Shown here one piece after another: positions 1,035 through 28,722 of a DNA stretch of 30,020 nt. The notes beneath the pieces were generated by a model that did no database searches, was not told the origin of the DNA, and saw only the letters and a list, made by a program, of their open reading frames with translations. How positions within the stretch are numbered: position 1 is the first letter of the stretch; each line of letters begins with the position of its first letter. The translations under genes and the position numbers were made by a program. The stretch comes from a virus: IMG/VR virus record IMGVR_UViG_3300045051_000335, positions 1 to 30,020 of that record, one strand, 5' to 3'.

Positions 1035-2015
1035 ATGAAAGTATTGTTTTTGGTAAATTCCCTTACAGATGCCTGCTCGTTTTATAGGGCGGGCGGTATT
1101 GTCAGGGACTTAAGAGAGAGACGGGGAGATGACATTTTTTGTGTTGAGTATGGGACAATCCCGCTGCACTGGCAGAACATTATGGATTTTGATTTGATCA
1201 TGATGCAGCGGCCTTCCAGTGATGCAGAATTAAGTCTGGCTAAGTACATGAAACATCTCAGGGTGCCCCTGTGGGTTGACCACGATGACAACCTGTTTGA
1301 AATACCGATAGAGAACCGGGCTTATTTGATCTATGATAATAAGCGAAAAAAAATAGTCTCAGACATCCTGCAACTGGCAGACGTGGTAACTGTAACCACG
1401 AATGATTTGAAAAATGCCTATGATGGGCTAAGCGGGGACGTTAGGGTCATACCAAATGCTTTGAACGATGGAATATTCATCCGGGAAGGAAAGCTCCCCA
1501 AAAGGGCTAAAAACGTGATTTGGCGGGGTAGTGATTCGCATGTCTACGACGTTATGTCGTTTGGGCAGGCCATTAATCAGGTAAAGGGGGAATTCCCTGA
1601 GTACATGTTCACATTCATGGGTTACAAGCCTTGGTATTTGGAGCAAACCCCCAATATGAAAGCAGTGCCGGAAATTGACCTGATTATGTATATGAACTTC
1701 CTGACAAAACAGAAGCCCATTGTTATGCAGGTGCCACTGGATGACAATTTCTTCAATCACTGCAAATCAAACATTGCATTTTTAGAGGGGACATTTGCCG
1801 GGGCTGCCTGCCTTGTTCCTGACTGGTGGGATGTTCCGGGGGGAATTCATTACAAAGGAAATCAGGGGTATTACCTAGCACTTAAGGCAATGCTTAATAA
1901 AGAGGTAGATATAGTTAAACAAAATGAACAGGCATGGGAGTATGTGCAGGATACACTACTTCTAAGTAAGGTTAATGATGCAAGATTATCAATATTGGAT
2001 ATGTTTCGGAAATGA
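1035..2015 (+). CDS. GT-B fold glycosyltransferase (GT4-like)
   Basis: Predicted to transfer a sugar from a nucleotide-sugar donor, acting in the host cytoplasm. The 326-residue protein starts with a Rossmann-type strand (MKVLFLVNSL). It has a mid-protein linker motif typical of GT4-like enzymes (VIPNALNDGIF) and a C-terminal donor-site region with an acidic residue and glycines (EGTFAGAACLVPDWWDVPGG). The length suits a compact GT-B enzyme. The start at 1035 is the first ATG after the repeat. It overlaps the next gene by four bases (ATGA), so the two are probably translationally coupled. Its site between the portal and MuF genes suggests a virion protein or a cell-surface glycan as target; the acceptor and sugar are unknown. 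Confidence 0.72.
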   Translation: MKVLFLVNSLTDACSFYRAGGIVRDLRERRGDDIFCVEYGTIPLHWQNIMDFDLIMMQRPSSDAELSLAKYMKHLRVPLWVDHDDNLFEIPIENRAYLIYDNKRKKIVSDILQLADVVTVTTNDLKNAYDGLSGDVRVIPNALNDGIFIREGKLPKRAKNVIWRGSDSHVYDVMSFGQAINQVKGEFPEYMFTFMGYKPWYLEQTPNMKAVPEIDLIMYMNFLTKQKPIVMQVPLDDNFFNHCKSNIAFLEGTFAGAACLVPDWWDVPGGIHYKGNQGYYLALKAMLNKEVDIVKQNEQAWEYVQDTLLLSKVNDARLSILDMFRK

Positions 2016-2812
2016 TTAAAACATTCACACTAGCCCATAATTTGACTTCAGAAGTCGATAGGGCAACAAAAGAGCTGTATGCATTAAATGAGGGGACAGA
2101 TTTTGAGCATGTAATAATAGACCTTTCTTTCCCGCTTATGGCAAAGGACGAAATTCCTGAGAATATAACAAATGCACGTCTGTTTAACAGTAACATGCTT
2201 CTGAGAATCGCACGAAAACACAATACCCCATACGTGAAACTGGATAACATAGGGGTGTCACAGAACTGGACGCAAGCGATTGAATTATTGAAACCTGAAG
2301 ATGGGGATGTGATTATAGGGGTAGACCCGGATGAGAGAGTTCAGACTGAAGGATGGGTACAGGCAGTGGCCACAGTTATGCAGGCCGGGGGTTATGGTTT
2401 AATTTCCCTTGGGGAGCCGGGCAATAATGCAGCAATGTTAAACCCGGAATTCCTGAAGACATACAAGATAAGCTACAACGAAAAAACCATTGAAGGCATC
2501 CGGGTCTGGGAAATGTCCGGGATCACAAACATGGCCCTTATTGGCCTTTCCGGGAAATTTATAAACAAGGGTCTTGGTGGTTTAATGCCTTACCCTATAC
2601 AGGTTCCCAGATATGGATGGATTGAGTCCGGGCTGATGCAAAACATATACGAACATGGAGGGTGGGCTGTATTGCCGGACTATATTGTACATCATACATG
2701 TGTATCGGAAATTTACGGGGAGTGGAAAACATGGGTTGTTCAAAACTGGCAGCAGTACGGACAGCCTGATTTTGGAACATGGTTAAGATGGAGAAAGGCA
2801 GGCAAGATATGA
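2012..2812 (+). CDS. GT-A fold glycosyltransferase (GT2-like)
   Basis: A second putative glycosyltransferase of 266 residues. It starts with a strand and a glycosyltransferase-type hydrophobic core, and carries an acidic DxD-like motif, VDPDER, at about residues 104-109. In GT-A enzymes such a motif binds the metal and nucleotide diphosphate. The rest is rich in Trp and Tyr (for example WEMSGI and YGEWKTW), as is common in acceptor-binding regions. Its start overlaps the stop of the upstream glycosyltransferase (ATGA) and its stop overlaps the epimerase start in the same way. The three genes therefore form one translational unit. The specific family and sugar cannot be read from the sequence. 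Confidence 0.62.
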   Translation: MIKTFTLAHNLTSEVDRATKELYALNEGTDFEHVIIDLSFPLMAKDEIPENITNARLFNSNMLLRIARKHNTPYVKLDNIGVSQNWTQAIELLKPEDGDVIIGVDPDERVQTEGWVQAVATVMQAGGYGLISLGEPGNNAAMLNPEFLKTYKISYNEKTIEGIRVWEMSGITNMALIGLSGKFINKGLGGLMPYPIQVPRYGWIESGLMQNIYEHGGWAVLPDYIVHHTCVSEIYGEWKTWVVQNWQQYGQPDFGTWLRWRKAGKI

Positions 2813-3738
2813 AAATGGTCTTACTTACAGGGGCGGCAGGCTTCATAGGCAGCAACGTAGCAGCCAGAATTATGAAATCGGGGGATTTTGTAGTACATGG
2901 ATGCGATAATTACAGCTTTGGGGACAAACTAAATGTTCCTGAAGGATTGAGTATGTACAACCGGGGATTTGAGGAGCTTACCCCGGCAATACTTTCAGAG
3001 TATGAAATCCTGATTCATTGTGCAACTTCCAATATTATTTATGGAATGGATAACCCCATTGCAACCTTCCAGAATAATGCAGTCAGGACAATGGAGCTAT
3101 TCAGGCAATTCAAGGGAAAGATTATTTATACATCCACGTCTTCAGTATACGGGCAGGCAGATGTATTTCCTACACCTGAGACGGCCCCAATAAGGACATA
3201 CAACGCTTATGATACATCTAAGCGAATAGCAGAGATGTATTTACAGCAGCGGGGTAATTTCACAACGCTCAGGCTATCAAATGTTTATGGACATGGACAG
3301 CGGGCTAGTAATCCATATTGCGGGGTGCTTGGAAGGTTCTTAAGGAATTCCTTAGAGGGCAATATATCACTGATATTTGGAGTAGGCGACCAGACAAGGG
3401 ATTACACCTACATTGACGACGTGGTTGATGCAATTTACAGGGCCTTAAAATATCCTGCCTTTGAAACTGAAATTAACATAGGAACCGGGATTGAAACCTC
3501 AGTTATTGAGCTACTGGGGCTTATGCCTTGGAAGGGCACATGGAAACATGTTCAGGAAAGGGATATAGACAGGGTAAAACGTCGCTGCTTGGACATATCC
3601 AAGGCCCGGACAAAATTACAGTGGACACCACTTGTAAAACTTAAGGATGGAATAAACAAAACACTAGACTGGTTAAGTGCTGAAAAGGGAAGAGATACAA
3701 GTAGTAAAGCAGTTGATTCTTCGAAAGTTAAGGCGTAA
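2809..3738 (+). CDS. NAD-dependent sugar-nucleotide epimerase/dehydratase
   Basis: A 309-residue extended short-chain dehydrogenase/reductase that would convert one nucleotide sugar to another, presumably supplying donor to the two upstream glycosyltransferases. Visible features are the N-terminal NAD-binding GAAGFIG (residues 8-14), a Ser/Thr-rich strand ending in SSVYG (about 110-114), and the catalytic YDTSK (Tyr134, Lys138). I chose the ATG at 2809, not the upstream in-frame ATG at 2779, because it overlaps the preceding stop as ATGA and places the dinucleotide motif at the usual distance from the N-terminus. The catalytic set is complete, so the enzyme is likely active. Substrate (UDP-, GDP- or dTDP-sugar) is not decidable by eye. 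Confidence 0.88.
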   Translation: MKMVLLTGAAGFIGSNVAARIMKSGDFVVHGCDNYSFGDKLNVPEGLSMYNRGFEELTPAILSEYEILIHCATSNIIYGMDNPIATFQNNAVRTMELFRQFKGKIIYTSTSSVYGQADVFPTPETAPIRTYNAYDTSKRIAEMYLQQRGNFTTLRLSNVYGHGQRASNPYCGVLGRFLRNSLEGNISLIFGVGDQTRDYTYIDDVVDAIYRALKYPAFETEINIGTGIETSVIELLGLMPWKGTWKHVQERDIDRVKRRCLDISKARTKLQWTPLVKLKDGINKTLDWLSAEKGRDTSSKAVDSSKVKA

Positions 3739-15514: not shown

Positions 15515-15647
15515 TATTGTTAAAGATTGTAACTCTCTGAGGCTTAATCAGACATATTTTCTCAGGATGGGCAATACGAAAGCATCAAACAGGGGGGTGA
15601 GTTGAAATTTCGGGCTAAAAACGGCCTTAAAACGAAAATAACATAAT
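15515..15647 (+). repeat. 133-bp repeated intergenic element, copy A
   Basis: It aligns without gaps to 27574-27706 (83 of 133 positions by hand count). Conservation is concentrated at both ends: a 5' block TATTGTTAAnnnTTGTAACT and a 3' block with GGGGGT, GGGCTAAAAA, GGCCTTAAA and TAACATAAT. It fills most of the 173-bp gap between the chaperone and tape measure genes and ends four bases before the tape measure start. Just upstream lies a small inverted repeat (TACCTA 15482-15487 / TAGGTA 15493-15498). It may be a phage-specific promoter, operator or leader RNA element. Confidence 0.72.
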
Positions 15648-27345: not shown

Positions 27346-27407
27346 TTTATCCCCTGTCAGGAGAACTGTTAAATTATCATTAAAATTCAGGTGGTTAAAG
27401 ATTTTGA

Positions 27408-27438
27408 TTGACAAAGTGAAAAGAATGTGATATCTTTG
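27408..27438 (+). promoter_or_regulatory. Bacteroidota-type promoter P1
   Basis: TTG (27408-27410), 20 bp, then TATCTTTG (27431-27438), an exact match to the TAnnTTTG -7 element of Bacteroidota primary sigma factor promoters with usual spacing. The predicted start of transcription is near 27445. No gene start lies between here and the terminator 75-110 bases downstream. Confidence 0.82.
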
Positions 27439-27444
27439 TGTCTA

Positions 27445-27548
27445 ATAGTTCACTTCCCCAAAAGCGGGCTATTATGAAGTTTGTCTCAATTTCTTTAAGT
27501 CAAAATTTGCCCAAGAGGCCCTACTGCAAAGTGGGGCTTCTTTTTTTT
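27445..27548 (+). ncRNA. Small RNA of about 100 nt (promoter to terminator)
   Basis: The stretch begins just after promoter P1 and ends at the strong terminator at 27513-27548, giving a transcript of about 100 nt. It has no supported coding frame: the 26-codon frame at 27474-27554 runs through the terminator stem. The RNA upstream of the terminator has CCCC (27456-27459) and GCGGGC (27464-27469), which could pair weakly, and an unpaired U-rich middle. It may be a trans-acting regulator, a decoy or an abundant phage RNA. The boundaries are predicted. Confidence 0.6.
27513..27548 (+). terminator. Very strong rho-independent terminator
   Basis: AAGAGGCCCTAC (27513-27524) pairs over all 12 positions, with two G-U pairs, with GTGGGGCTTCTT (27531-27542) around the loop TGCAAA. 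Six more T complete the run to 27548. Confidence 0.92.
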
Positions 27549-27573
27549 GGGTAAGAATTTGTCCTAGTTAACT

Positions 27574-27706
27574 TATTGTTAACCCTTGTAACTAATTGAT
27601 CTATAACCAACAAAACGATCTATAAGGGAGCTTTATAAATATAGCACTGTAGGGGGTAAATTCAAAAAAAGGGCTAAAAAGGGCCTTAAATCAAATGTAA
27701 CATAAT
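27574..27706 (+). repeat. 133-bp repeated intergenic element, copy B
   Basis: It aligns ungapped to 15515-15647. The conserved 5' block is TATTGTTAAnnnTTGTAACT; the 3' block has GGGGGT, GGGCTAAAAA, GGCCTTAAA and TAACATAAT. In this copy the final AT begins an ATG (27705) that starts a 31-codon frame; in copy A the tape measure start follows within seven bases. This copy also carries GATCTATAA twice (27598-27606, 27617-27625) and GTTAAC motifs not shared with copy A. The even spacing of both conserved blocks argues for a functional element, not chance. Confidence 0.72.
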
Positions 27707-27800
27707 GATAAAAATAATTGAAAAAACAGTGAAAAAAACACTGGAAAATATTGCTTTTTGTTTTAATCCGCCGTATATTTGTTATGTGAGATGGGGGTAA
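27705..27800 (+). CDS. Possible 31-residue leader peptide
   Basis: An ATG overlapping the end of element copy B opens a 31-codon frame with a Lys-rich N-terminal half (MIKIIEKTVKKTLENIAF) and a Cys- and aromatic-rich end (CFNPPYICYVRWG). The stop at 27798-27800 lies just after promoter P2, so the frame crosses that promoter. The position matches that of the tape measure start behind copy A, but size and overlap make this only a candidate. Confidence 0.3.
   Translation: MIKIIEKTVKKTLENIAFCFNPPYICYVRWG
27751..27781 (+). promoter_or_regulatory. Bacteroidota-type promoter P2
   Basis: TTG (27751-27753), 20 bp, then TATATTTG (27774-27781), the same spacing and -7 pattern as promoter P1. Transcription would begin near 27788, at the start of the structured RNA. 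Confidence 0.8.
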
Positions 27801-27990
27801 GGCCCGACGGGAAGCAGCCCGGACAGTTCACCGGAAAACTGAGGCAAAAAGACGGATAAGGGTAGCGATTCATGTACGTCCTGATAAGTTCTGAGTAGTG
27901 CGAGGGGAGAGTCCCGTAACCCGGCTAACGGCGGGTCGTGAGTGCGAAAGGAGCGACAGGGGCCGACTGCTTATAAAACGGCTCCCTGAG
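27786..27990 (+). ncRNA. Structured RNA of about 200 nt, class not recognised
   Basis: A G/C-rich island in AT-rich flanks, directly downstream of promoter P2. Hairpins visible by eye: CGGG/CCCG (27808-27811/27818-27821); CAGTT/AACTG (27824-27828/27837-27841); GACG/CGTC (27851-27854/27877-27880); GGGA/TCCC (27905-27908/27912-27915); CCCG/CGGG (27920-27923/27932-27935); GTCG/CGAC (27935-27938/27954-27957); and CAGGGGCCG (27957-27965) with CGGC-T-CCCTG (27979-27988), nine pairs with one bulge. A near-repeat AGTGCGA(R)RGGAG occurs at 27897 and 27941. A further stem CGTTATC/GGTAACG lies at 28012-28031, before the next gene. It could be a free RNA or a leader of the 82-residue gene at 28052. No rRNA, tRNA, group I or group II core was recognised. 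Confidence 0.7.
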
Positions 27991-28051
27991 AATGAAGATA
28001 AAACAACAGGGCGTTATCTTTAAAGGTAACGGCTTTAAATAATAAAGAGCT

Positions 28052-28300
28052 ATGAAATACACATTAACAGTTGAAGAAACCGGACTGAAGAATGGTAAGT
28101 ATTTTTACAAGGTTACCGACGAAACCGGAAAAGTTTGGGCAACAAGACACTCTAATCGTAAATACGTCGCCTGTGATAAACTTGGGAACTGGTTTTTTGG
28201 TCGTCTGGATTTGATTGGGAAAGGTGCTCATGCCTACCACTTGAAAATGTGCAGAGAGAAAGGCGTTGAGCCGTTACCACTGGCATATTTAGAAAATTAA
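28052..28300 (+). CDS. Small unknown protein downstream of structured RNA
   Basis: An 82-residue basic protein, beta-rich in its first two thirds (YTLTVEETGLKNGKYFYKVT, TRHSNRKYVACDKLGNWFFG) with a short C-terminal helix (HLKMCREKGVEPLPLAYLEN). The small, strand-rich, Lys/Arg-rich fold could bind nucleic acid, but no motif proves this. The start sits in the context AGAGCTATG, shared with the genes at 15652 (ATAGCTATG) and 28740 (ACGCTATG). It may be translated from the transcript carrying the structured RNA and so could be regulated by it. Family unknown. Confidence 0.62.
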   Translation: MKYTLTVEETGLKNGKYFYKVTDETGKVWATRHSNRKYVACDKLGNWFFGRLDLIGKGAHAYHLKMCREKGVEPLPLAYLEN

Positions 28301-28338: not shown

Positions 28339-28722
28339 ATGGATACAAAGGAAAAAGAAGAAAAAATGAGAGAAAGTTTTGGGGCACAAACAGCCTTGGT
28401 ACTTTTGTCTATCGAAAGAGTGAACCACAAACCACATCCCTACACTATAGGGCCTAAGCACGTCGCATGGGCTTCTGAACATTCCGGGGGTTCATTAACA
28501 GAGGAAACCTTTAAAAAGGTTCCGTGTGCTGCTCGTGGTTGTCAGCTGTCTTATGCAGAACACACAAGTGACGAGGCTGCATTTGTGCAGCTTACCCGGA
28601 ACGCTACAGGTGACGAAATTAGGACTATCCTGAAAAGGTCAACTGAAAAACTTGGAGATAAATTTGTGGATGGATTTGTCTTTGTTGAAACGAAAGAAAA
28701 ATTTAGAGTAACCAAAGAATAA
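28339..28722 (+). CDS. Unknown soluble protein
   Basis: A 127-residue soluble protein with a charged N-terminal helix (KEKEEKMRESFG), then a mixed alpha/beta part with two Cys and His residues close together (KVPCAARGCQLSYAEH), and a C-terminal strand-rich end (FVDGFVFVETKEKF). The CxxxxC-x6-H arrangement could bind metal but fits no family I recognise. It sits between other small unknown genes with A-rich start contexts, in what looks like an early or accessory gene cluster. Confidence 0.6.
   Translation: MDTKEKEEKMRESFGAQTALVLLSIERVNHKPHPYTIGPKHVAWASEHSGGSLTEETFKKVPCAARGCQLSYAEHTSDEAAFVQLTRNATGDEIRTILKRSTEKLGDKFVDGFVFVETKEKFRVTKE

Follow-up and report, generated by a model that had tools for sequence, protein, structure and literature searches.

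The put sites of lambdoid phages are RNAs of about 70 nt that comprise two hairpins and act in antitermination at early promoters. To our knowledge, few regulatory RNAs have been described from phages of Bacteroidota, a group whose members seldom rely on Shine-Dalgarno sequences. Here, we analyse a GC-rich non-coding island that lies directly downstream of a promoter in a Bacteroidota phage, and that may form the structured part of a long leader of its early operon.

The window, by which we mean the whole 30,020-base IMG/VR record analysed here, carries the gene set of a tailed phage, including portal, major head protein, tail genes, endolysin and a candidate holin, together with a 1683-aa ORF that is probably the tape measure. 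The head protein shares 56-65% identity with its counterparts in nine IMG/VR phages and 31% with those of Riemerella phages, and shows weak similarity to head proteins in Bacteroidota genomes. Both the related phages and the promoter sequences suggest a host among the Bacteroidota. Between the portal and scaffold genes (1035-3738) are glycosyltransferase and nucleotide-sugar epimerase genes, homologues of which are retained in the head-gene region of related phages. The early promoter, the terminator before it, the leader with its helices and hairpins, and the first two early genes described below all lie on the plus strand.

A promoter resembling those of the Bacteroidota primary sigma factor occupies positions 27751-27781, with a TTG (ATTG) -33 box at 27751, a 20-nt spacer and the -7 box TATATTTG at 27774-27781. 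It fits the consensus described for B. fragilis (TAnnTTTG at -7 and TTTG at -33; PMC7366714), except that ATTG replaces TTTG in the -33 box. Two such sites are present in the 441 nt from 27346 to 27786 against 0.03 expected, and none of 2000 shuffles reached two. The consensus promoter that a sequence-only reading of this DNA had placed a few bases before the island is therefore borne out, and from the position of its boxes the transcript is expected to start at about 27787. Upstream of it, an intrinsic terminator (27513-27548) separates the early promoter from the late and lysis genes.

Two further elements were observed in the same spacer. A second promoter (TTGACA-N17-TATCTTTG) is followed about 100 nt on by the strong terminator just mentioned, making 27408-27548 a candidate for a small RNA of its own, about 105 nt long, with a layout resembling that of Bacteroides sRNAs; its sub-threshold Rfam matches (BTnc231, E 0.03; GibS, E 0.13) seem to be mostly driven by the terminator. 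The element GGGCTAAAAANGGCCTTAAA is found at 15612-15631 and at 27671-27690 within a 55-bp repeat (78%), one copy directly preceding the 1683-aa gene and the other lying upstream of the early promoter. These are its only two copies in the window, against 0.03 expected, and it is possibly a phage regulatory site.

The same junction can be recognized in related IMG/VR phages and in cultured phages of Bacteroides and Parabacteroides, where the lysis genes are followed by a terminator and then by a TANNTTTG-like promoter that precedes the early operon. The -7 box at the equivalent position is TATATTTG in L005 and L131-L135, and TACCTTTA in L117. At the same place, G001 (58% identity in the head protein) combines a terminator and a TATATTTG promoter with a leader about 30 nt long; in G401 (65%), the promoter is of the TACCTTTA type, the leader measures about 45 nt, and the early operon includes a homologue (48% identical) of the 127-aa protein encoded by the second early gene of the window (28339-28722). 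The first early gene of the window (28052-28300) codes for an 82-aa protein with homologues (E down to 7e-11) in phages BKO1-3, PDS1, PD491P1, C1_85S2P, Barc2635 and BF10P1-3; a structure prediction for this protein reached a pLDDT of 55 and was set aside. In several of the cultured phages with an 82-aa homologue, the endolysin genes are followed by a terminator hairpin, TATATTTG and a leader with a hairpin (about 49 nt long in PD491P1 and C1_85S2P), after which come the early genes; hairpin leaders seem common in the early operons of these phages. Since the relatives share both the layout of the junction and early-gene homologues, we take the promoter of the window to be the one that drives the early operon in phages of this type.

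The leaders at this junction differ greatly in length, at about 30-50 nt in the relatives versus about 265 nt here. As those of the relatives are short, the GC-rich domain would represent a lineage-specific expansion of the leader, and one that this type of operon can do without, since the relatives manage with short leaders. The island itself has no homologue in five related phages, and single-sequence covariance models run over the relatives were also negative. GC-rich hairpins (CCGGGGGTTCGTCCCCCGG) were also observed directly before early genes in the cultured relatives L131 (2434-2456) and L132 (2437-2459), and in the window CCGGGGCGCAAGTCCCGG precedes the 127-aa gene.

The best explanation, which we favour tentatively and rate at slightly less than an even chance, is that the early operon has a long 5' untranslated leader, transcribed by the host polymerase, of which the island forms the structured part. 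The putative leader (27787-28051, about 265 nt) ends at the ATG of the 82-aa gene, and no terminator was found between 27990 and 28052. With a promoter upstream, no coding capacity and no terminator ahead of the first gene, the region presents the features of a cis-acting 5' leader. The sequence-only reading had left the choice among a stand-alone RNA, a decoy and a leader of the 82-residue gene; the leader is the option best supported by the missing terminator, the promoter at the junction and the early-operon homologues, and leader status is moderately well supported.

The composition of the island stands out clearly. The GC-rich core proposed initially (27786-27990) has 58% GC and 36% G, and the best 205-nt stretch of the spacer (27346-28051) reaches 57.6% GC, whereas in 1000 shuffles of the spacer the best stretch averaged 45.5% and never exceeded 53.2%; the remaining spacers of the window have 32-40% GC. 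Codon-usage scores in all six frames range from -0.27 to -0.84 (references: real genes +0.24, wrong frames -0.21) and mark the island as non-coding. The presence of a G/C-rich non-coding island of about 200 nt is thus confirmed, and a hidden gene is rejected on the same scores, though one frame contains two stops only.

The claim of strong structure fared less well. Folding energy of 27786-27990 is -59.9 compared with -64.4 in shuffles (z +0.96, and +1.2 in a repeat run), i.e. no better than chance, and the full 27786-28051 region gives a z of -0.3. A 13-nt internal near-repeat is indeed present (27897-27909/27941-27953), but is equalled in 20% of shuffles. In contrast, the nine-pair closing hairpin CAGGGGCCG...CGGCUCCCUG (27957-27988, pairing 27957-27965 with 27979-27988) is recovered with pair probabilities of 0.85-0.99; it is not an intrinsic terminator, because it has no U tract. 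Two internal hairpins, GACGGAUAAGGGUAGCGAUUCAUGUACGUC at 27851-27880 (pair probability 0.77-0.95) and CCCGGCUAACGGCGGG at 27920-27935 (0.85-1.0 in three leader-length folds), are likewise stable in folds of the leader, and only the distal hairpins are stable across folds.

Folding of the whole leader suggests that the boundary at 27990 is probably too short, as the domain is then closed by a predicted helix, P1, that reaches 28019. P1 pairs the 5' strand GGGUAAGGCCC (27795-27805) with the 3' strand GGGCGUUAUCU (28009-28019) at a probability of about 0.94-0.95 in the 27788-28051 fold. The first 25 and last 50 bases of the leader form 12.05 expected pairs versus 2.7 in layout-preserving shuffles, which retain its arrangement of GC-rich and AT-rich parts; pairing as strong occurs in 2.7% of these and in 7% of whole-leader shuffles, a statistic that is suggestive only, because the test was picked after the fold had been seen. 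The 3' strand of P1 is also used by a competing palindromic hairpin, CGUUAUCUUUAAAGGUAACG (28012-28031), 21 nt ahead of the start codon, and the lowest local folding z of the region (-2.45, for 27980-28059) covers this hairpin. The two are mutually exclusive and are predicted, from the single sequence, to lie 0.8 kcal/mol apart. Extending the fold by 39 nt into the gene raises the hairpin state, and only the distal hairpins then exceed a probability of 0.7.

In the mechanism that we would propose, the host primary RNA polymerase would transcribe the leader (about 27787-28051) from the promoter at 27751-27781, and the leader would fold as a multibranched domain closed by pairing of 27795-27805 with 28009-28019. 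The 3' strand of P1 could then switch to the hairpin directly before the start codon and, as with other leaders that act in cis, whichever state is adopted would set how well the early mRNA is translated or how stable it is; the switch is deduced from folding predictions. Two other observations concern the same stretch. A perfect 8-nt complement (GGGCCTTA/TAAGGCCC) links 27681-27688, in the upstream element, to 27798-27805, in the 5' strand of P1, and may be relevant to read-through transcripts. At 27992-28042, an open frame of 16 codons, MKIKQQGVIFKGNGFK, overlaps the palindromic hairpin and stops 9 nt before the 82-aa gene; it is a possible leader peptide.

Several points count against a folded leader domain: a folding energy no better than that of shuffles, the choice of the P1 test after the fold had been seen, the lack of homologues, the few hairpins that stay probable once gene sequence is added to the fold, and the short leaders of the relatives. 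None of the relatives examined has the domain. Alternatively, the island may have no function at the RNA level and be a recent GC-rich non-coding insert or a DNA element, such as an operator or a replication or packaging site, the fold being a product of composition. We consider this unlikely, but a serious contender. The folding z of +1.0 to +1.2, the chance-level near-repeat and the lack of the island at the same junction in every relative all fit it; however, the pairing of the leader ends is unusual (2.7% of shuffles), and neither repeats nor inserted gene remnants of a mobile element were found at the island. Moreover, with a strong promoter within a few bases, the island should be transcribed.

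A separate trans-acting phage RNA, with its own promoter and freed by processing upstream of the 82-aa gene to serve as a regulator, a protein-binding RNA or a decoy, appears improbable. The promoter, the stable 3' hairpin at 27957-27988 and a composition rich in GC and purines, as is typical of structured RNAs, would suit such a molecule, but the island does not end in a terminator, and the early operon would be left without a promoter of its own. Base-pairing in trans with phage mRNAs was rejected: predicted pairing with phage translation starts is no stronger than that of controls, and binding at least as good as that of the tape-measure leader was seen in 73% of control stretches.

The island is an orphan by sequence comparison, with no relative in any collection searched. 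No homologue was detected by blastn in phage and plasmid records or across 395 + 393 Bacteroidota genomes (about 790), nor by three pattern scans of IMG/VR viral contigs; weak genome matches (L096-L105, L127) and pattern matches (L106, L128, L129) were each inspected and rejected as chance, consisting mostly of coding or AT-rich DNA. A single-sequence covariance model run over 198 genomes gave no homologue (best E 0.07, at chance level), and a repeat search found no second copy of the island in the window, which also discards a DGR template. Rfam returned no family at gathering scores and none inside the island even at E <=10, and neither tRNA nor tmRNA was found in the sequence. Covariance models of HEARO, GOLLD, ROOL, RNase P, group I and II introns and raiA, among others, gave no match. 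The initial assignment to an unknown class, distinct from tRNA, tmRNA, RNase P, rRNA and introns, therefore holds. The nearest downstream genes (82, 127, 71 and 160 aa) match no reverse transcriptase family, in the search for a retron or DGR, and no IscB family, consistent with the earlier statement that IscB is missing nearby.

That reading had also perceived a faint likeness to omega RNA (HEARO) of IscB systems, which did not stand. No match to RF02033 was obtained in the island at E <=10, although the same cmscan detected HEARO in 8/8 control IscB loci (L008-L015), found in plasmids, phages and genomes with an OgeuIscB protein verified by its full-length match to PDB 7utn. The conserved HEARO motifs CUACGUU, UUAAACAGU and AACAUUGGCGA are absent from the island, the regions upstream of IscB in two OgeuIscB-like loci (L016, IscB 70% identical; L017, 43%) have no motif in common with it, and its single-sequence model does not match IscB loci. 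A supposed order of motifs shared with OgeuIscB omega RNA (GUAAGG...AAGCAG...CUGAGURGUGCG) was dropped, as L016 and L017 show no such motifs. An omega RNA partnered in trans with a host IscB, for which speak only a similar length (about 205-230 nt versus 211) and the phrase pointed out initially, is thus highly improbable.

It is also conceivable, but doubtful, that the leader belongs to an undescribed class of phage regulatory RNA, in which the large P1-closed domain would respond early in infection to a ligand, to a protein of phage or host, or to the polymerase itself, and switch the early genes through the hairpin at 28012-28031, or would act as a put-like antitermination site in Bacteroidota.

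If the structured leader is real, Bacteroidota phages can bear large structured leaders at their master early promoter, which would offer a compact system for RNA control in a group where Shine-Dalgarno sequences are rarely used. For now, this single orphan sequence has mainly yielded a revised boundary, a genomic position conserved among relatives, cultured phages named for comparison and a clear negative result for IscB.

Comparison with known systems places the region as follows. The omega RNA of IscB systems (RF02033) is of similar length, but differs in sequence, in structure model and in that no IscB lies near the island. As in riboswitch-like bacterial 5' leaders, the fold predicted here is a multibranched domain whose closing helix, P1, shares its 3' strand with a hairpin before the start codon; unlike them, the leader of the window lacks a conserved aptamer, a known ligand, homologues and an Rfam match. 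The put RNAs of HK022 are structured and open an early phage transcript, as the island is proposed to do, but differ from it in size, sequence and host polymerase. The early leaders of PDS1, PD491P1, C1_85S2P and BKO1-3 share with the window the position after the lysis genes and terminator, the TATATTTG -7 box, a GC-rich hairpin preceding the first early gene, and an operon holding 82-aa homologues. They differ in their length of about 49 nt and single hairpin (CCGGGCGUUUUCCCGG) where measured, in having no sequence similarity to the 265-nt leader, and in that other early genes precede the 82-aa homologue in the operon. We read the island as belonging to an ordinary kind, the leaders of phage operons, and as set apart by a predicted folded domain of unusual size and high GC content.
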